Source: a virus. From it: a DNA stretch of 48,831 nt. The stretch is taken from positions 1 through 48,831 of IMG/VR virus record IMGVR_UViG_3300033146_001161; one strand, 5' to 3'. The stretch's first letter is position 1. Each line of letters starts with the position of its first letter. Shown piece after piece: positions 34,934-48,450 of the stretch. The position numbers and the translations under genes were made by a program. The notes under the pieces are model-generated. The model saw only the letters and a list, made by a program, of their open reading frames with translations, searched no databases and was not told the origin of the DNA.

Positions 34934-36166
34934 TTATAATACAATAGACTGACCCAGTTTAGGTATTGTTACTTTTGCATTTGGGAATGATTTTCCTAAC
35001 ATTTTGGCAAAACCCAAACATTGTGAGTCATCGCCATGTTGTACTATTATATTTTTAACTTTTTTCTTTTCCACTGTAGATAATGATTCAATTATCTCAA
35101 TACCACTCGCATGAGAGGAAAGTCCAGTGAACATATCGGTCTTAGCTCTAATTATAATAGTTTCTTTTATTCCATCTCTATACGTTATAATTTGTTTTTG
35201 TTTATTATTGATTATTAATGAACCTTCTGTTCCGTCTGCCAAAAATCCTGTAAAGCTAACTTTATTCTTTCTAGACTTCAATATAGTTGGCAATACCAGA
35301 TTATTTACTCCATGCGTCGACATTCCACTTGAAGCCAATATAATCATCGACTCATCTTTATTTATAATTCTTTCGACATCTTTAAACTCGCTAATCATTG
35401 TAATTTGACTCCAATTAAATAAATCCATTTCAGATCTCCACTCATCATCATAAAATTCTTCACCTAGACTTATTTCTCGATGTATTTTACACATCAACGG
35501 TGACATCGCATATATCTTGATTTTCTTTAATTCTGGATATTTCTCAAATGTCTTTTTTAAATATAACATTACATTAGTACTTCTTGCAAAACTAAAGACT
35601 GGTAATAAATACTTTCCATTCTTATCGATACAAGTTTCCACTATATTATCATGTAATTGCTCTATCATTTCATCTACACTTTTAGGCTTAACATAATTAT
35701 CACCATAAGTAGACTCTAAAACTATATCAGTAAATTTATAATTTTTATCAGACAAATCTAATTTTTTAGTATATGGCATATATCTATCACAAGATGTATC
35801 TCCACCAAATAATAATCGCTTAATATCATACCCATCTTTCACTTCCAATATAATAGAAGCGGAGCCTGATACGTGTCCATTTGGTATGAATTTAAATTTA
35901 ATATATTCATTGATTATTATCCATTTATCATATCCATATCCACGAATCATACTAGACATTTGTTCTTTAGTTTTTTCATTCATAAATGGGAATACATGTT
36001 GATGTTTCTTATTATGTTTATTTAACATCTCGATTGTTTTAAGATGTAGCTTTACTGAATCATCTATTATATGTTTTGATATATTCATAGTTAGTTCAGT
36101 CATATGTATTACTCCATCAAATTGTAATCTTGGTAATTGACTAAGATTTCCTACATGGTCTATCAC
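34934..36166 (-). CDS. Beta-CASP metallo-beta-lactamase RNase-like protein, C-terminal piece
   Basis: 410 codons, beginning GTG ATA GAC CAT, so the product starts M-I-D-H, the second half of the HxHxDH metal motif. Other beta-CASP (CPSF73/RNase J-like) motifs are present: LESTYGD, VFSFARSTN, ILASSGM, GLSSHASG and VQHGDD. The GTG overlaps the TGA of the N-terminal piece (GTGA). Either two coupled polypeptides form a split enzyme or the gene carries a small insertion/frameshift. Such enzymes cut RNA ends or mature RNAs. Confidence 0.7.
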   Translation of the reverse strand: MIDHVGNLSQLPRLQFDGVIHMTELTMNISKHIIDDSVKLHLKTIEMLNKHNKKHQHVFPFMNEKTKEQMSSMIRGYGYDKWIIINEYIKFKFIPNGHVSGSASIILEVKDGYDIKRLLFGGDTSCDRYMPYTKKLDLSDKNYKFTDIVLESTYGDNYVKPKSVDEMIEQLHDNIVETCIDKNGKYLLPVFSFARSTNVMLYLKKTFEKYPELKKIKIYAMSPLMCKIHREISLGEEFYDDEWRSEMDLFNWSQITMISEFKDVERIINKDESMIILASSGMSTHGVNNLVLPTILKSRKNKVSFTGFLADGTEGSLIINNKQKQIITYRDGIKETIIIRAKTDMFTGLSSHASGIEIIESLSTVEKKKVKNIIVQHGDDSQCLGFAKMLGKSFPNAKVTIPKLGQSIVL

Positions 36167-36405
36167 AGATGGGCATGTGTAATTAATACATGCCCAATAT
36201 CCTCCATATCTCTAGTTAATCTATTCATCTCTATTAATTGTTTTGCTTTTGCATTTTTCTGCAACATGCCACAATCTATTAATATTTTGTTTTCTACACC
36301 GCCAACTTTTATACTTAATAATGTGGCAGAGCCAGTAACTTCGACATCTGCTAATAATTTCTGGTATTTAATTTGTATTTTATTTTGACTCTTGCCCAAT
36401 ATCAC
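36163..36405 (-). CDS. Beta-CASP RNase-like protein, N-terminal piece ending in THAHL
   Basis: 80 codons matching the start of a metallo-beta-lactamase fold (GSATLLSIKVGG; KILIDCGMLQ) and stopping right after VLITHAHL. The next residues needed (DH) lie in the following gene, in another frame. Removing five bases at the junction would restore a continuous THAH-x-DH enzyme of about 490 residues. Start GTG (36,405) or nearby TTG (36,399); AAGGA lies upstream of both. Confidence 0.65.
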   Translation of the reverse strand: MILGKSQNKIQIKYQKLLADVEVTGSATLLSIKVGGVENKILIDCGMLQKNAKAKQLIEMNRLTRDMEDIGHVLITHAHL

Positions 36406-41519: not shown

Positions 41520-42473
41520 ATGAGTGAAAGAAATGTAATACTGGAGGAAGGATATGCAAGTTTTATAAAAATTCCAAAGAGTTTATTTTTAAAAGGATTT
41601 GTAAAGAACGATAATATGATAATATCTACATACTATCAAGTCGCTATGAGCAAAGGTATGGATGGAAAGTTATCAATAAATAGTCATATCAGATTACCAG
41701 AAATGGGGATGATTCGAAATAGATATAATATCAATAAGTTTAAAAATGGAATAAAACTACTATATGATAATAGGTATATAGGAGATGAAATAGGCATTGT
41801 AAGTAAAAATGAAGTAATTTCACTTTCATACAGTGGCTTGGCAAAAATCGATAAAAACTATTTCAAATTATCAGTTTATGAGTATGATGAAATTGTAAAC
41901 AGTGGATACCCGTTAAAGGTTGCATTAGGCATGCTAAACCAATATTGTATATATAAAATGTTCCAGTCTAATAATAATGATAATTGGAAATATACCAAAG
42001 GGACAGCTAGTGTGGGATACGATAAAATAAAAGAACTTACAAATCATTCAAAAAGTTCCGTTGCAAAATATAATTCCATATTATCAGATGAGTTGGTATT
42101 ATTAGAAATTGGGAATGTTGGATTATATGCAAATATCAATGGAGATATAAAGACATTTAATAATATATATAGTCCTATTTCACAATCTGGGATAGCTTGT
42201 ATTGAAAGTGCAAGACGTGACATTCAGATATCATTAGAAAAGATTAATAAATGGATGGTAGGGGCTGGATACAATTTTAAATGCCATATAAAAAATTCTG
42301 ATATTAGGTCTTTGAATGGTAAAATATCGTACTATGGAAATAAGATTAAAAATAATATTGCAACGGATGATGATGTAGATGAGCTTGAAAAAGCGATGAT
42401 TGACAAACAGATAATGAAAGGCGGAACAATAGATGATGATATATGTGATATAGATGGTTTTGAGAATGTATAA
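41520..42473 (+). CDS. Replication-initiator-like protein (RepA_N/DnaD-type winged helix candidate)
   Basis: A 317-residue protein. The opening (FIKIPKSLFLKGFVKNDNM) and the pattern after it resemble the RepA_N/DnaD-type initiators of Firmicute plasmids and phages. A second winged-helix-like stretch (DKIKELTNHSKSSVAKYNSI) lies at about 165-195, and the acidic C-terminus may bind a partner. It sits next to iteron-like repeats, as a Rep gene does. Not certain: it could instead be a transcription regulator of the divergent promoters. Confidence 0.5.
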   Translation: MSERNVILEEGYASFIKIPKSLFLKGFVKNDNMIISTYYQVAMSKGMDGKLSINSHIRLPEMGMIRNRYNINKFKNGIKLLYDNRYIGDEIGIVSKNEVISLSYSGLAKIDKNYFKLSVYEYDEIVNSGYPLKVALGMLNQYCIYKMFQSNNNDNWKYTKGTASVGYDKIKELTNHSKSSVAKYNSILSDELVLLEIGNVGLYANINGDIKTFNNIYSPISQSGIACIESARRDIQISLEKINKWMVGAGYNFKCHIKNSDIRSLNGKISYYGNKIKNNIATDDDVDELEKAMIDKQIMKGGTIDDDICDIDGFENV

Positions 42474-42491
42474 ATTAATTTAAATATACTA

Positions 42492-42520
42492 TTGACATAT
42501 TAATTATGCAATGATATAAT
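42492..42520 (+). promoter_or_regulatory. Consensus sigma-A promoter
   Basis: TTGACA (42,492-42,497), 17-base spacer ending TGA, TATAAT (42,515-42,520), about 60 bases before the 81-residue gene. Confidence 0.9.
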
Positions 42521-42578
42521 GTACCTAGATAGTAAGAGTGATAGCAGCACAAAATAATAAAGAGAGGAGATTATATAT

Positions 42579-42824
42579 ATGGGAATGTATACTTACGTTG
42601 GTAATGTTGAGAGAATCAAAACTTTGGTAAAAGAGATATATGACGAATGCGAAGATGTAAAAGATTTAGAAAAAGTGGAATATGATATTATTGATATTAT
42701 AGAGTTAATTTCAGAGGAATGTAAAGGTAGATTAATATCTAATTCAAGACACAATAATATTCAAGCTAAGATAGACCATCAATTGGAGTTGTATTTACAG
42801 AAAAAAAAGGCATTAGAAGATTAG
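42579..42824 (+). CDS. Small acidic helical protein
   Basis: An 81-residue, highly charged helical protein with its own consensus promoter and AGAGGAG ribosome site. Strong expression of a tiny early protein often marks host-takeover or anti-defence functions. No family recognised. Confidence 0.65.
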   Translation: MGMYTYVGNVERIKTLVKEIYDECEDVKDLEKVEYDIIDIIELISEECKGRLISNSRHNNIQAKIDHQLELYLQKKKALED

Positions 42825-42838
42825 CTAGTTAGATATCG

Positions 42839-42940
42839 ATTATATAAGCCCATAGACAGGTTTTATTACCTTAGGCATACAATAGTATTCAAAACTATAT
42901 AAATGCTTACCACAGGCTTATATAAGCTATATTTGGGCAT
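42839..42940 (+). promoter_or_regulatory. Leader with mutually exclusive stems before the NAD operon
   Basis: TATATAAGCC (42,841-42,850) pairs perfectly with GGCTTATATA (42,915-42,924). Alternatively GCCCA (42,848-42,852) pairs with TGGGC (42,934-42,938). The two share bases, so only one can form. This is switch-like and lies 115 bases before the operon's first ATG. A TATAAT follows at 42,942-42,947 with a weak -35. Confidence 0.4.
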
Positions 42941-43053
42941 GTATAATGGATATGTTAGGTAGGATAATGTAGTATAGTAAAGTATTAATGAAATATTAGG
43001 ATAATTAAGAGGAAATTAAGAGGAAATAATAAACTATAAAAGGAGAGTAAATA

Positions 43054-43872
43054 ATGATTATATTAAATAACAAGGAAGTATATGTCGTACGTTTTCCAAA
43101 TGGGGAAACTAACATTGACATTGAAGAATTATGTATATTAGAATCAAAGCCGAATATTATGAGATTTAAATTTGAAACTAATGAGGATTTGATAACTTTA
43201 ATGTTCTTAAAGAAACATTTAGATGAATATGAAAATGGTATGAAAATTGCCTTAATAATTGATTATATGCCTTATAGTAGAATGGATAGGAAGATAGAGG
43301 GTAAAGTATTCACTCTCAAATATATATCTGAATTCTTAAATAATTTAAATTTCAATCAAATATATGTACATGAACCTCATAGTGATGTATCTATTGCATT
43401 ATTAAATAGTTGCCACTTTGGTTATACGACTGTGGAAATTGCAAAGAGAGCTATGGAAGATATGAGTTTTAATAAAGATAAAGATTATGTATTATTTCCA
43501 GATGCGGGTGCACAAAAGAGATATGGAGAAACTTTTTCAGAGTTCAAAACTTTAATAGGATTCAAAACTAGAGACTTAGATAGTGGCAAAATAGAATCAT
43601 TAGCTATATACGGAGATGGCAAACTAGAAGGGAATAAAGTTTTAATAATAGATGACTTATGTAGCAGAGGTGAAACATTTATGAGAAGTGCAGAAGCGGT
43701 TGAAGCAATTGGTGGTGGTGATACATATCTTGCGGTAACCCATCTGGAGAATAATGTATTGACTGGATACTTACCTACATCACATTTAATTAAAGGTGTA
43801 TATGCATCCGAATCTATCTGTACTAGGGCAAGTTTTGAGAAACTAACATTGTTCAATTTGGAGGATATGTAA
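43054..43872 (+). CDS. PRPP-synthetase-like enzyme, possible ADP-ribose pyrophosphate synthetase (Adps-like)
   Basis: A 272-residue member of the ribose-phosphate pyrophosphokinase family, shorter than the usual 310-320. Motifs: YMPYSRMDRK (71-80), HEPHSD (106-111), PDAGAQKRY (149-157), and the PRPP-loop equivalent VLIIDDLCSRGET (196-208). It transfers pyrophosphate from ATP to a ribose-5-phosphate (PRPP synthesis) or, as in NARP1 Adps, to ADP-ribose. Its operon with a macro-domain protein and a NAMPT-like enzyme makes a role in NAD+ rebuilding likely. Which substrate is used cannot be read from sequence alone. Ribosome site AAAGGAGAG. Confidence 0.8.
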   Translation: MIILNNKEVYVVRFPNGETNIDIEELCILESKPNIMRFKFETNEDLITLMFLKKHLDEYENGMKIALIIDYMPYSRMDRKIEGKVFTLKYISEFLNNLNFNQIYVHEPHSDVSIALLNSCHFGYTTVEIAKRAMEDMSFNKDKDYVLFPDAGAQKRYGETFSEFKTLIGFKTRDLDSGKIESLAIYGDGKLEGNKVLIIDDLCSRGETFMRSAEAVEAIGGGDTYLAVTHLENNVLTGYLPTSHLIKGVYASESICTRASFEKLTLFNLEDM

Positions 43873-43873
43873 T

Positions 43874-44332
43874 ATGAGTGTAGAGATAATCAAGGGTGAT
43901 TTATTTGAGACGGATTGTCAAGTAATTGGACATCAAGTAAATTGTAAAGGTGTAATAGGAAGTGGAGTAGCTTTGCAAGTAAGAAAGAAGTACCCAATAG
44001 CATATAGACATTATTTAGCCAGGTCTGAAATCTCAAATGTATTTGGAACAGTAGGTGTTGTCAAAGTATCGGACAATCTACATATAGCAAATATATATAG
44101 CCAAGATAGTTATGGTTACGACGGTGAGCAATATACTAGTCTAATCGCATTCGAGAACGCTTTAAAGCTATTAAATAGAACGATGAGACAAATAGGTTTG
44201 ACAAGTGTGGCATTGCCATATAAAATAGGATGTGTAAGAGGTGGTGCAGATTGGAATATGGTATCATCTATTATAGAAAAAACACTAGGATATAATTTAA
44301 CTGTTAAACTATATCAGCTAGATAAAGGATAA
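43874..44332 (+). CDS. Macro-domain protein (ADP-ribose-binding type)
   Basis: A 152-residue single macro domain. Signature: IIKGDLF at the start, NCKGVIGSGVALQVRKKYP (23-41) as the glycine-rich ligand loop, and SVALPYKIGCVRGGADW (136-152 region in family order) near the end, closest in look to the Poa1/TARG1/DarG group. Such domains bind or hydrolyse ADP-ribose derivatives: ADP-ribose-1''-phosphate, ADP-ribosyl-DNA or protein. It lies one base after the PRPP-synthetase-like gene and 15 bases before the NAMPT-like gene, so it is part of the NAD+ operon. Catalytic ability is unproven. Confidence 0.85.
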   Translation: MSVEIIKGDLFETDCQVIGHQVNCKGVIGSGVALQVRKKYPIAYRHYLARSEISNVFGTVGVVKVSDNLHIANIYSQDSYGYDGEQYTSLIAFENALKLLNRTMRQIGLTSVALPYKIGCVRGGADWNMVSSIIEKTLGYNLTVKLYQLDKG

Positions 44333-44347
44333 AAGGAGAAATAAATT

Positions 44348-45850
44348 ATGAAAAATATTAATACAATGTTATTACTCGATGGATACAAACTGGGACATAG
44401 GATTCAATATCCAAAAGGTACTGAAAAAGTATACTCTACATTTACACCAAGAGGGAGTAGAATAGATGGAGTGGATGAAATTGTATTCTTCGGACTACAA
44501 GCATTTATAAAAAAATATCTAATAGATTACTATAATGTAAACTTTTTTGAGGAAGATATAGATGAAATAGTAAATGACTATAAGAGATTTATTAAATATT
44601 ATTTAGGAGATGATGATGCAGACGTAGAACACATTAGAAATCTACATAAACTTGGTTATTTACCAATTGAAATTAGAGCAATTAAAGAAGGTTTGAAAGT
44701 TCAAATGAGAGTGCCTATGTTTACAATAGAGAGTACTCATCCAGAGTTTTCATGGATTACAAATTATCTAGAAACGCTTGTATCATCTGAAATGTGGTAT
44801 CCAATTGTTAGTGCAAATACTTCTTTAATGTATAGAGATATTGCAGATAGGTTTGCAAAAGAAACCATTGGGGATACAGGGTTTTCAAAGTTCCAATGTC
44901 ATGACTTCTCACAAAGAGGACAACATTGTACTGAAAGTGCAATATTAAGTGGCATGGCTCATATGTTAAGCTTTGTAGGTACAGACGTTGTCCCAGCAGT
45001 TGTAAATATTGAAAAATATTACAATGGAAATATGGAGAAAGAAATGATTGGGGTTTCTGTAAATGCAACAGAACATGCAGTAATGTGTGCTGGTGAAAAA
45101 GATTCTGAATATGAAACTTATAAGAGATTATTAACTGAAACATACCCAAAAGGTATTATATCTATTGTATCTGATACGTGGGATTATTGGAATGTATTAA
45201 CTGATATTTTGGTTAAATTAAAACCTATCATAATGGAAAGAAATGGTGTTACAACTCTTCGCCCCGACTCAGGAAATCCTTTCAAAATAATTTGTGGTGA
45301 CCCAGAGTCAAATTTAGAACATGTTAGAAAAGGTTCTATAGAAGTATTATGGGATTTATTTGGCGGAAGTATCAATAATCTTGGATATAAAGTATTGGAT
45401 AGCCATATAGGACTTATTTATGGGGAGGCTATACAACCTCAGTTAATGGAAAGTATCCTTAAAAGATTAAAAGAAAAAGGCTTTGCTTCGACAAACATTC
45501 TATTTGGAGTTGGCTCTTATGGATTTTTAAGCGGTGGCGTTGGAGGTGGTATTGCAACTAGAGATACGTTTGGAATCGCATGTAAGGCTACTTATGTTGT
45601 AGTAAATGGCGAGGAGAGAAAAATATTCAAAGACCCTAAAACTGATGATGGATTGAAGAAGTCTCAAAAAGGTATGGTAGTTGTTGCATTAAATGAAAAT
45701 GATAAAATGATTGCAATTGATGACAACACATCATCAGAAAGGGATTATTTGAGTTCAGTAGACTTATTGGAAGTTGTATTTAAAAATGGAAAACTAATAA
45801 GAGATGATTCTATCTCTGATATTAGAAATAGGATTCATAATAACTTTTAA
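44348..45850 (+). CDS. NAMPT-like phosphoribosyltransferase (or NAD+-forming Namat)
   Basis: A 500-residue member of the nicotinamide phosphoribosyltransferase family, the usual length. Substrate residues match human NAMPT: Arg190 in HDFSQRG, Asp213 in GTDVVPA, His243 in NATEH, and Arg305/Asp307 in LRPDSGNP. The GGVGGGIATRD loop and FKDPKTDDGLKKSQKG tail fit as well. It joins nicotinamide to PRPP, giving NMN, or to ADP-ribose pyrophosphate, giving NAD+ directly (NARP1). Third gene of the tight NAD operon. Ribosome site AAAAGGAG. Confidence 0.9.
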   Translation: MKNINTMLLLDGYKLGHRIQYPKGTEKVYSTFTPRGSRIDGVDEIVFFGLQAFIKKYLIDYYNVNFFEEDIDEIVNDYKRFIKYYLGDDDADVEHIRNLHKLGYLPIEIRAIKEGLKVQMRVPMFTIESTHPEFSWITNYLETLVSSEMWYPIVSANTSLMYRDIADRFAKETIGDTGFSKFQCHDFSQRGQHCTESAILSGMAHMLSFVGTDVVPAVVNIEKYYNGNMEKEMIGVSVNATEHAVMCAGEKDSEYETYKRLLTETYPKGIISIVSDTWDYWNVLTDILVKLKPIIMERNGVTTLRPDSGNPFKIICGDPESNLEHVRKGSIEVLWDLFGGSINNLGYKVLDSHIGLIYGEAIQPQLMESILKRLKEKGFASTNILFGVGSYGFLSGGVGGGIATRDTFGIACKATYVVVNGEERKIFKDPKTDDGLKKSQKGMVVVALNENDKMIAIDDNTSSERDYLSSVDLLEVVFKNGKLIRDDSISDIRNRIHNNF

Positions 45851-45879
45851 AAAAATAATTAAATTAATTTCAATAAGTG

Positions 45880-45908
45880 TTGACACATCAGAAATGGTGT
45901 GTTATGCT
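45880..45908 (+). promoter_or_regulatory. Sigma-A promoter overlapping the KilAC gene start
   Basis: TTGACA (45,880-45,885), 17-base spacer, TATGCT (45,903-45,908). It lies on top of the first codons of the open frame that follows, so the true coding start must be further right. Confidence 0.7.
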
Positions 45909-45943
45909 TATATCAACCTAAAGCAGATAACTATGAAATATTA

Positions 45944-46213
45944 ATGGACTCCAAAGGTGATATTGATTTTGCATCTTTTGTGAAGAGTGCCAATTTAATA
46001 TTTGGAAGAAATACATTTGTCAACAAATTAAGAGATAATGAGATAATCAGATCCAAGCCTAGTACTGAACCATATCAAAGATTTATTGATATTGGATATT
46101 TCAAGGTAATCCAAACTGTTAAAGGACTGCATAGTTATCCTAAAACATTGATAACTAAAAAGGGTATAGATTGGTTAATGAAAAAATGTAAAGAGTGGGA
46201 GATTTTAAAATAA
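45944..46213 (+). CDS. KilAC-type antirepressor domain, N-terminally truncated
   Basis: 89 residues matching the C-terminal KilAC/ANT domain of phage antirepressors (ASFVKSANLIFGRNTFVNKL and the closing TLITKKGIDWLMKKC). The usual N-terminal Bro/Ant or DNA-binding half is missing. The frame is open from GTG 45,899, but the promoter overlaps that codon, so I start at ATG 45,944, which lacks a clear ribosome site. It is likely a remnant or a free-standing antirepressor module. Confidence 0.55.
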   Translation: MDSKGDIDFASFVKSANLIFGRNTFVNKLRDNEIIRSKPSTEPYQRFIDIGYFKVIQTVKGLHSYPKTLITKKGIDWLMKKCKEWEILK

Positions 46214-46245
46214 CCTACGACTACTCAAATTCGTATAGCCTCAAA

Positions 46246-46273
46246 AATAAGCTATAAGCTATAAGCTATAAAC
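46246..46273. repeat. 7-base tandem repeat (AAGCTAT) in the RtcB leader
   Basis: About four units, the last imperfect, directly before the AAAAGGAG ribosome site of the RtcB gene; another example of short repeats placed in gene leaders. Confidence 0.8.
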
Positions 46274-46291
46274 TATAAAAGGAGAAATAAT

Positions 46292-47497
46292 ATGTATGAA
46301 ATAAAAGGAAAATATGGAGTAGCAAAGATAATGTCTGAAAACTTAGATATTAAATCATTTGACCAAATTCAAAAATTAATGGATAATCCTAGTGCAGAGG
46401 GAAGTAAAGTTAGAATTATGCCAGACTATCATTATGGAGCAAGTTGTGTAATTGGAACTACTATGGAAGTAAAGGATAAGGTTATCCCCAATGTAGTTGG
46501 AGTAGATATAGGTTGTGGGGTTTTAGCAGTTAAGATAGCAGAGAAAGATATTAATTTAAAAGAGATTGATGATTTTATTACTAATAATATACCAAGTGGG
46601 TTCAGAGTTAACAAAGAGCCAATTGAATCATTTGATATAACTAAACTAAGATGTTTAGACAACTTGAAATTAACTTCTAAAGATGTTAATAGAGCGATGT
46701 GTTCAATCGGAACATTAGGTGGTGGAAATCATTTCATAGAAATAGATGAGGATTCAAGTGGTAAGAAATATATCATAGTACACACTGGAAGTAGAGGATT
46801 AGGATTAAAAGTTGCCAATTATTATCAAGACTTAGCAATTGATATGATGAAAAAAGAAAACTCATTAAGAAGAAGTCAAGCAGTGGATGCTTTGAAAAAA
46901 TTGGGAAAAGAAGAGTCTATAGAAGGAGTATTGAAAAATATAGGGAGATTAATACCAAAAGATATGTCGTATTTATCTGGTCAAGGGTTAGAGGACTATT
47001 TACACGATATTGGTATTATCCAAAGATATGCAGAGTTAAATAGGGAGACTATAATAAATAGGATAGTGAGTGAGTTTGGATTCAATATTGAATTAAAGAT
47101 TGAAAGTGTTCATAATTTCATAGAAGATAGTATACTTAGGAAGGGTGCCATATCTGCAAAATTAGGTCAACCTGTAATAATACCACTAAATATGAGAGAT
47201 GGTTGTATACTTGGGTTTGGTAGAGGCAGAATAGATTATAATGAATCTGCACCTCATGGAGCCGGAAGAGTGTACAGCAGAACAAAAGCTAAAAAGGAAA
47301 TATCTATGGATGATTATATAAAATTTATGGAAACTGTATACTCTACAAGTGTAAATAAATCAACATTAGACGAAGCTCCACAAGCATATAAAAATATGGA
47401 TGAGATAATAAAAGAGGTAGATAAAACTGTTGAAATTTCAATGGTAATTAAGCCTATATATAATTTCAAAGATAGTAAGGAGGTTTACACATGCTAA
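46292..47497 (+). CDS. rtcB: RtcB-type RNA ligase
   Basis: A 401-residue RNA ligase that seals 2',3'-cyclic phosphate and 5'-OH ends with GTP and manganese. Metal residues: Cys75 (VGVDIGCG), His147 (TLGGGNHF), His164 (VHTGSRG), His274 (SVHNF); guanylylated His322 (PHGAGRVYSR). Length as in E. coli RtcB (408). In phages it can repair tRNAs cut by host defence nucleases. The segment before the last histidine (PLNMRDGCILGFG) differs from the usual PGSMGTASY form, so it belongs to a divergent branch. Confidence 0.95.
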   Translation: MYEIKGKYGVAKIMSENLDIKSFDQIQKLMDNPSAEGSKVRIMPDYHYGASCVIGTTMEVKDKVIPNVVGVDIGCGVLAVKIAEKDINLKEIDDFITNNIPSGFRVNKEPIESFDITKLRCLDNLKLTSKDVNRAMCSIGTLGGGNHFIEIDEDSSGKKYIIVHTGSRGLGLKVANYYQDLAIDMMKKENSLRRSQAVDALKKLGKEESIEGVLKNIGRLIPKDMSYLSGQGLEDYLHDIGIIQRYAELNRETIINRIVSEFGFNIELKIESVHNFIEDSILRKGAISAKLGQPVIIPLNMRDGCILGFGRGRIDYNESAPHGAGRVYSRTKAKKEISMDDYIKFMETVYSTSVNKSTLDEAPQAYKNMDEIIKEVDKTVEISMVIKPIYNFKDSKEVYTC

Positions 47498-47757: not shown

Positions 47758-48450
47758 ATGAAAAACTTAAACAATATGAGATTACCAAAAGATATAATAA
47801 TCAATGGAGTTACACTAGAAGAAATATTAAAACTACATAGTTTATGGCTAAACAATGACGTCTCTGGAGTTCGTGCAGATTTAAGACATGCAAATTTAAC
47901 TAATGCAAATTTAAAACATGCAAATTTAGGAAATGCGGATTTAACTGGTGCTGATTTAAAATATGCAAATTTAAATGGTACAAATTTAAGATATGCCGAT
48001 TTAACTGATGCCGATTTAACTGGTGCAAATTTAGAAAATGCAAATTTAACTAATGCAAATTTAAAACATGCAAATTTAGGAAATGCGGATTTTAAATTCG
48101 CGAAGTTAACCAATGCAGATTTAAGATATGCTGATTTAACTAATGCAAATTTAAAACATGCAAATTTAATTGGTGCGAAGTTAACCAATGCAGATTTAAG
48201 ATATGCTGATTTAACTGGTGCCGATTTAAAATATGCGAATTTAAAACATGCAAATTTAACTAATGCGAATTTAAGCGATGCAAATTTAAGCGATGCAAAT
48301 TTAAAATATGCGAATTTAACTGGTGCAAATTTAACTGGTGCAAATTTAACTGTTGCAAATTTAGAAAATGCCGATTTAAGATATGCAAACTTAATTAATG
48401 CCGATTTAAGACATGCAAATTTAACCCAAATTATGATGACAAGCAAATAA
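47758..48450 (+). CDS. Pentapeptide-repeat protein (copy 1, probably frameshifted at its end)
   Basis: A 230-residue protein. Residues 1-38 are a unique N-domain (LPKDIIINGVTLEEILKLHS). Residues 40-225 are about 37 pentapeptides of the A(D/N)Lxx type, forming a right-handed square beta-helix. Some members mimic DNA and protect gyrase (Qnr/MfpA), but many are of unknown role. The stop TAA at 48,448 comes right after a short shifted stretch. In another frame the DNA continues 54 codons as coherent protein, so the native C-terminus is probably lost by a one-base deletion in an A run near 48,428. Confidence 0.85.
   Translation: MKNLNNMRLPKDIIINGVTLEEILKLHSLWLNNDVSGVRADLRHANLTNANLKHANLGNADLTGADLKYANLNGTNLRYADLTDADLTGANLENANLTNANLKHANLGNADFKFAKLTNADLRYADLTNANLKHANLIGAKLTNADLRYADLTGADLKYANLKHANLTNANLSDANLSDANLKYANLTGANLTGANLTVANLENADLRYANLINADLRHANLTQIMMTSK

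Follow-up and report, generated by a model that had tools for sequence, protein, structure and literature searches.

A NARP1-type operon with an embedded macro-domain gene in a virus record, and the recurrent linkage of macro genes to NARP1

A three-gene operon of the NARP1 kind

We analysed a whole IMG/VR virus record (IMGVR_UViG_3300033146_001161; 48,831 bp, linear and perhaps a fragment; hereafter the window), in which three intact open reading frames (ORFs) lie in tandem on the + strand, separated by 1 and 15 bp. Gene 1 (43054..43872) encodes a 272-aa protein similar to Adps, an ADP-ribose pyrophosphate synthetase with the fold of phosphoribosyl pyrophosphate (PRPP) synthetases. It is followed by a gene for a 152-aa macro-domain protein (43874..44332) and by gene 3 (44348..45850), whose 500-aa product resembles Namat, a nicotinamide ADP-ribose transferase with the NAMPT fold. 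An AGGAG-type Shine-Dalgarno-like sequence precedes each gene, i.e., AAGGAGAG for gene 1 (43040..43047), GGAGG within the 3' end of gene 1 for the macro gene (43860..43864) and AAGGAGA for gene 3 (44333..44339), all on the + strand. The operon and its two gaps, described in a first-pass annotation of this DNA, are thus as reported, and the trio is a real NARP1-kind operon to which a macro domain has been added.

The reference for this system is NARP1 of Bacillus phage SPbetaL1, an Adps and Namat pair that was biochemically tested (Lan et al. 2026, PMC12774641), and structures of SPbetaL1 Namat with NAD+ and nicotinamide (NAM) define the family. The window resembles it in the homology of both enzymes, the order of Adps then Namat, and the NAM-contact and selectivity-clamp loop (SCL) residues, and differs in having a macro gene between the two enzymes, a 7-residue insertion in the clamp helix and a deep, separate branch of its own.

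Both enzymes group with Adps and Namat

Gene 1 shares 43% identity with SPbetaL1 Adps over 258 aa, compared with 24% for E. coli Prs, and matches PHROG 619 (ribose-phosphate pyrophosphokinase, E=1e-64). Gene 3 is 55% identical to SPbetaL1 Namat over 486 aa, yet only 29-31% identical to NadV of one KVP40-type Vibrio phage, one Klebsiella phage and one Rhizobium phage; it matches the PHROG family nicotinamide phosphoribosyl transferase (5e-187). The best phage matches are SPbetaL1, top among 50,697 phage records for gene 3, and Alicyclobacillus KKP_3916, and the two top PDB matches of gene 3 are closely similar chains, probably of one protein. Phylogenetically, the window Namat falls within the NARP1 clade, split from classical NadV (KVP40-type, Klebsiella) at 100/100, and forms a long, deep, lone branch both in a quick earlier tree and in the later one. 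The proposal of a NARP1 pair, which was to be given up if the enzymes clustered with plain Prs and NadV and lacked ADP-ribose activity, passes this test, as alignment and trees place both with Adps and Namat. With an Adps homologue rather than a Prs sharing an operon with a Namat, and the macro gene between them, genes 1 and 3 very probably constitute a NARP1-type pair.

Alignment of gene 3 with SPbetaL1 Namat supports this placement at the level of the active site. Arg38 (44459..44461, + strand) corresponds to SPbetaL1 Arg40 in the SCL and provides the stacking residue (Arg, Lys or Tyr) characteristic of NARP1. The NAM pocket and catalytic core are likewise kept: Asp213 (44984..44986, + strand) matches Asp215, which hydrogen-bonds nicotinamide in SPbetaL1, and Ala240, Phe187, Arg190 and Arg305 match Ala242, Phe189, Arg192 and Arg306. 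His243 (45074..45076, + strand) occupies the family's catalytic His position, conserved in 138 of 138 ungapped sequences, and we take it to be the equivalent of the catalytic His of human NAMPT. Judging by its retained Asp213, gene 3 would be of the nicotinamide type.

The selectivity clamp helix (SCH) departs from the family pattern. Published Namat proteins carry the signature GSX-phi-X-phi-X-phi-TRD, and of the 130 clusters whose motif could be read, 104 have the canonical spacing. In gene 3 the helix reads GVGSYGFLSGGVGGGIATRD (45506..45565, + strand; GIGSFTYQYNTRD in SPbetaL1), with an insertion of seven residues, so that the signature becomes GSYGFLSGGVGGGIATRD, with a spacing of +7 and loss of the second aromatic (SPbetaL1 Tyr396). 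Kept are the GS, the first aromatic (Tyr391, SPbetaL1 Phe392) and Thr404-Arg405-Asp406 (TRD), and residues 395-401 of the insert appear disordered in the structural model (predicted local distance difference test score, pLDDT, below 50). Hence, while the family placement made at first pass stood, the clamp does not follow the Namat signature, and because of this insertion the use of ADP-ribose pyrophosphate (ADPR-PP) by gene 3 is best described as presumptive, i.e., NARP1-like rather than certified.

This altered clamp could instead favour PRPP, which would fit classical salvage, where gene 1 would act as a PRPP synthetase and the product of gene 3, as a NAMPT, would form nicotinamide mononucleotide (NMN) that the host completes to NAD+. 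The folds are common to both enzyme sets, and SPbetaL1 Namat itself is published to produce NMN from PRPP. However, both proteins are far nearer to Adps and Namat than to E. coli Prs or NadV, the clamp Arg, first aromatic and TRD are retained, and no match to an NMN adenylyltransferase (NadM/NadR/NadD; PF01467) was found in the 48.8-kb record, which is possibly incomplete. Plain Prs/NadV salvage was accordingly rejected on sequence and tree, and we consider classical salvage unlikely for this operon.

Macro genes repeatedly accompany NARP1

To place the embedded macro gene in a wider context, we drew on an IMG/VR sample of 80 Adps and 80 Namat loci plus 10 close ones (numbered L), clustered at 90% Namat identity; loci L016-L022, which were taken for their macro genes, are excluded from frequency statistics. 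In 22 of 128 Namat clusters a macro gene is found either between the two enzyme genes or no more than 1 kb downstream, a count uncorrected for deeper relatedness. All 30 of the 30 macros in surveyed loci share the operon strand, and macro genes are dense just downstream (15 per 121 kb) compared with upstream (1 per 537 kb; p=1.2e-10).

The arrangements vary. The order Adps-macro-Namat occurs in the window, in Vibrio phage 184E37.1 and in L061, L081, L095, L096, L113, L145 and L166, and many other loci have the order Adps-Namat-macro with overlaps of 1-4 bp. On the Namat tree, presence of a macro gene requires at least 15 changes and its position between the two enzymes 7, and the linked macros fall into at least four lineages. 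One lineage, bearing a KINSG...VPW motif, we take to resemble Poa1p. Since the orders vary and the macros come from separate lineages, the association arose several times. The first-pass suggestion of a three-part system, which hinged on the macro linkage not being rare and random, thus found support: the linkage is frequent, same-strand and convergent, and the macro is in all likelihood functionally coupled to the NARP1 pair.

Could the macro gene nevertheless sit there by chance, given the mosaic nature of phage genomes? Large phages commonly carry macro genes (PMC9503650), and most Namat loci have none. Against this stand the contrast between downstream and upstream density, the uniform strand and the several independent, overlapping arrangements. 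These linkage statistics led us to reject the idea at the level of the family, and we regard it as very improbable for the window.

Other genes were also found to recur in NARP1 operons. An insert matching the PHROG 'phosphoheptose isomerase' occurs at L104:4505-4999 and in 11 relatives (8 of them between Adps and Namat), and a nucleoside 2-deoxyribosyltransferase-like family recurs at L027:5829-6329 and in its relatives; both are candidate further third genes that may handle ADP-ribose (ADPR). In one gut-phage locus, a SIR2-family protein is encoded between Adps and Namat (L045:6225-7016).

Linkage of a macro gene to NARP1 has precedents. The first-pass annotation knew of no NARP operon with a macro domain, a statement now superseded by Pseudomonas phage Adele, in which a macro gene follows NARP1 and is suggested by the authors to free ADPR for it (PMC12846349); the ADPR-supply idea is thus already published. 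Pakpunavirus genomes (PAK_P1, Adele) encode the same three protein families, yet in the order prs-orf-nadV-orf-macro and with a macro from another lineage (35% identity). A tested third gene is RyDEP of mycobacteriophage DyoEdafos, proven to yield the ADPR from which Adps and Namat then build NAD+ (PMC13232231). It too lies inside a NARP1 operon, but it is an RyR-domain glycosidase with 2'/3' cyclic ADP-ribose (cADPR) as its shown substrate, whereas the inserted gene of the window is a macro domain and not an RyR domain (PF02026). Vibrio phage 184E37.1 shares the gene order of the window (one overlap and a 13-bp gap) but differs in a Namat of about 36% identity and a macro of another lineage, and is annotated, without comment, as PRPP synthase, Appr-1-p and NAMPT. 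What is new here is the frequency of the macro-NARP1 linkage, its convergence and the recurrence, across unrelated phages, of the arrangement with the macro gene between the two enzymes.

The macro protein and its possible role

The AlphaFold2 model of the macro protein (pLDDT 94) has a macro fold with an ADPR-binding loop, and its top Foldseek matches are DarG (E 6e-13), TARG1, BT1257 and Poa1p. Sequence models agree, with matches to the PHROG 'phosphatase' (macro) at 6e-39, to Pfam Macro at 5e-4, below the cut-off, and to the DarG-macro NCBIfam model at 7e-20, likewise under that model's cut-off. A scan of viral contigs with the window macro protein as a single query returned no match. The protein shares its fold with the Poa1p, TARG1 and DarG macros (query TM-score, TMq, 0.79-0.84), but it is stand-alone, 21-26% identical to them, and has Q77-D78 in place of the DarG lysine pair. 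With no DarG lysine, and no DarT-like gene seen nearby among those scanned, we rejected its identity as a DarTG antitoxin.

An alignment of the linked macros showed that His20 (43931-43933, + strand) and Asn23 (43940-43942, + strand) hold the positions of Poa1p His23 and Asn26, and that they are kept in 27 of 28 and 28 of 28 NARP1-linked macros, respectively. Retention of this Poa1p-type pair speaks for an enzyme that hydrolyses an ADPR derivative at its 1'' position, the chemistry argued by the Adele authors for their own macro (PMC12846349).

Taken together, we read the locus as a NARP1-type operon for reconstituting NAD+, supplemented by an ADPR-recovery enzyme, with a probability of about 0.6. 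Once NAD+ had been split by a TIR, SIR2, Thoeris or similar defence of the host, Adps would pyrophosphorylate ADPR to ADPR-PP with ATP, and Namat would join ADPR-PP and nicotinamide into NAD+. The macro would release ADPR by hydrolysing a 1''-linked form of it (ADP-ribose-1''-phosphate, an ADP-ribosyl adduct, or an acetyl, glycosyl or cyclic derivative), thereby clearing a signal or toxic product and feeding Adps. That the macro supplies ADPR by such hydrolysis is, on balance, slightly favoured.

Several observations weigh against the ADPR-recovery reading. Besides the broken clamp signature of gene 3 and the missing DarG lysine pair, 83% of surveyed Namat clusters have no macro within 1 kb, and infection by the Pakpunavirus PaP1 is reported, as cited in PMC12846349, to lower NAD+ despite these genes. 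Moreover, Rhizobium phage RHph_I1_18 (L018:1481-4459) carries NARP2 as overlapping NadM-NadV-macro genes. As in the window's system, a macro accompanies a NAMPT-family gene, here overlapping it, but NARP2 takes the PRPP/NMN route and has no Adps; since it does not use ADPR, the macro may serve NAD-based conflict generally.

This last point leads to a different role, in which Adps and Namat are an ordinary NARP1 and the macro helps to counter the same defences without supplying ADPR, either as a sponge or cleaver of a signal such as a cADPR isomer, or by de-ADP-ribosylating DNA or protein modified by DarT-type toxins. DarG and TARG1, the nearest folds, are de-ADP-ribosylating enzymes, and DarG is also the best NCBIfam model. 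Macro genes are tied to NARP2, whose substrates exclude ADPR, and occur away from NARP1 in many phages, and phage macros have been proposed to counter small ADPR derivatives (a 2022 survey in Viruses, PMC9503650, which also reported NADAR genes next to those for NAD+ salvage). On the other hand, the absence of the DarG lysine pair speaks against such a role, and the linkage, which is convergent and far stronger at NARP1 than in the flanking DNA, finds its simplest explanation in a shared metabolite. We regard a non-supplying macro as clearly less probable than ADPR recovery.

Neighbouring genes and bacterial NARP1 loci

Upstream of the operon, a putative promoter is suggested by a consensus scan (TTGACA-17-TATAAT, 12/12; 42492..42520, + strand), 5' of both an ORF at 42579-42824 and the operon. 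No terminator-like site was found in a scan of 42400-46400. Downstream lies a KilAC-domain ORF (45899..46213, + strand; Pfam ANT 1e-14), probably separate from the operon, with a promoter-like TTGACA-17-TATGCT ahead of it at 45880, followed by a gene for an RtcB RNA ligase (46292..47497, + strand; Pfam RtcB 7e-58), a neighbour whose membership in the system is only putative. The tail and portal genes of the record are on the strand opposite to the operon. Also in the window are an apparently split Beta-CASP/RMMBL metallo-beta-lactamase ribonuclease-like protein (34934-36405, - strand; overlapping ORFs 34934-36166 and 36163-36405) and, close to the contig end, a 230-aa pentapeptide-repeat protein (47758-48450).

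The nearest NARP1 loci in GTDB genomes belong mostly to Paenibacillaceae and Bacteroidota. Of 80 such loci in genomes, 38 have KptA, 35 NADAR and 12 a macro gene, always 5' of Namat and on the same strand. Flavobacterium clusters comprise an NrtR-type Nudix regulator (L264), Adps, macro, KptA, NADAR (L218) and Namat, and at L264:981-7476, L218:2407-7479 and other Bacteroidota loci among L188-L267 the chromosomal NARP1 genes cluster with KptA, NADAR and macro, sometimes joined by an NrtR, PurA-like or nucleoside-deoxyribosyltransferase-like gene. KptA converts NAD+ to ADPR 1'',2''-cyclic phosphate. Conversion of this product to ADPR by the macro, and of ADPR to NAD+ by Adps and Namat, would form a coherent loop, which indirectly supports the ADPR-supply reading.

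The same clusters also raise the idea that the window operon belongs to an RNA-repair cluster and recovers the NAD+ and ADPR spent in repair. The RtcB gene begins 441 bp past the Namat gene, L042 has an RtcB gene between Adps and Namat, and KptA and NADAR occur in bacterial NARP1 loci, including the KptA-macro-Adps-Namat clusters of Bacteroidota. Yet RtcB chemistry is independent of NAD+, and KptA was not found in the window record, while of 24 related NARP1 records just 1 has it. We consider this idea quite improbable for the window.

A gut-phage branch with a changed nicotinamide contact

In one branch of gut-phage loci, comprising L016 and 23 further clusters within L037-L079 (e.g., L057:4196-4900 and L044:7290-8057), the NAM-contact Asp is replaced by Ala or Ser. 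All 24 of these clusters also have a PncA-like nicotinamidase and/or NadE together with an enlarged clamp helix, and all 24 carry Ser at the second NAM contact (SPbetaL1 Ala242); PncA or NadE was found in 0 of about 115 other clusters. The nicotinamidase-like gene precedes Adps and the NAD synthase gene follows Namat. The PncA set retains Asp57, Lys149 and Cys183 and the metal residues Asp96, His98 and His115, the NadE set retains SGGKDS, and a macro gene is present in 15 of the 24 clusters. Because the branch is one clade, the change represents one evolutionary event.

These features suggest a deamidated route of NAD+ reconstitution. Nicotinamidase would turn NAM into nicotinate, the switched Namat with its enlarged clamp would join nicotinate and ADPR-PP into nicotinic acid adenine dinucleotide (NaAD), and NAD synthase would amidate NaAD to NAD+. 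A rival account is that the branch runs the Preiss-Handler pathway with PRPP and host NadD; a CTP_transf_like protein, which could be NadD or NadM, occurs in only 3 of 17 branch records. We found no description of the branch in the papers searched, which came from a limited library.

An enlarged clamp is also present in the window, whose macro groups with the branch macros (92/87). It is not itself of the deamido type, as Asp213 and Ala240 are kept and neither PncA nor NadE was found in the 48.8 kb.

Significance

The macro domain thus emerges as a recurrent, convergently recruited partner of phage NAD+ rebuilding, turning a suggestion made for one phage into a family-wide pattern. Whether NARP1 is more broadly a modular ADPR-recovery platform, repeatedly recruiting an ADPR-freeing enzyme (macro, RyDEP) and with one gut-phage branch gone deamidated, we judge to be evenly balanced. 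The role of bacterial NARP1 was left open by the Namat authors, and the KptA-tied clusters bear on what it does. Lastly, the gut-phage branch points to a second way of rebuilding NAD+, which would proceed via nicotinate and NAD synthase.

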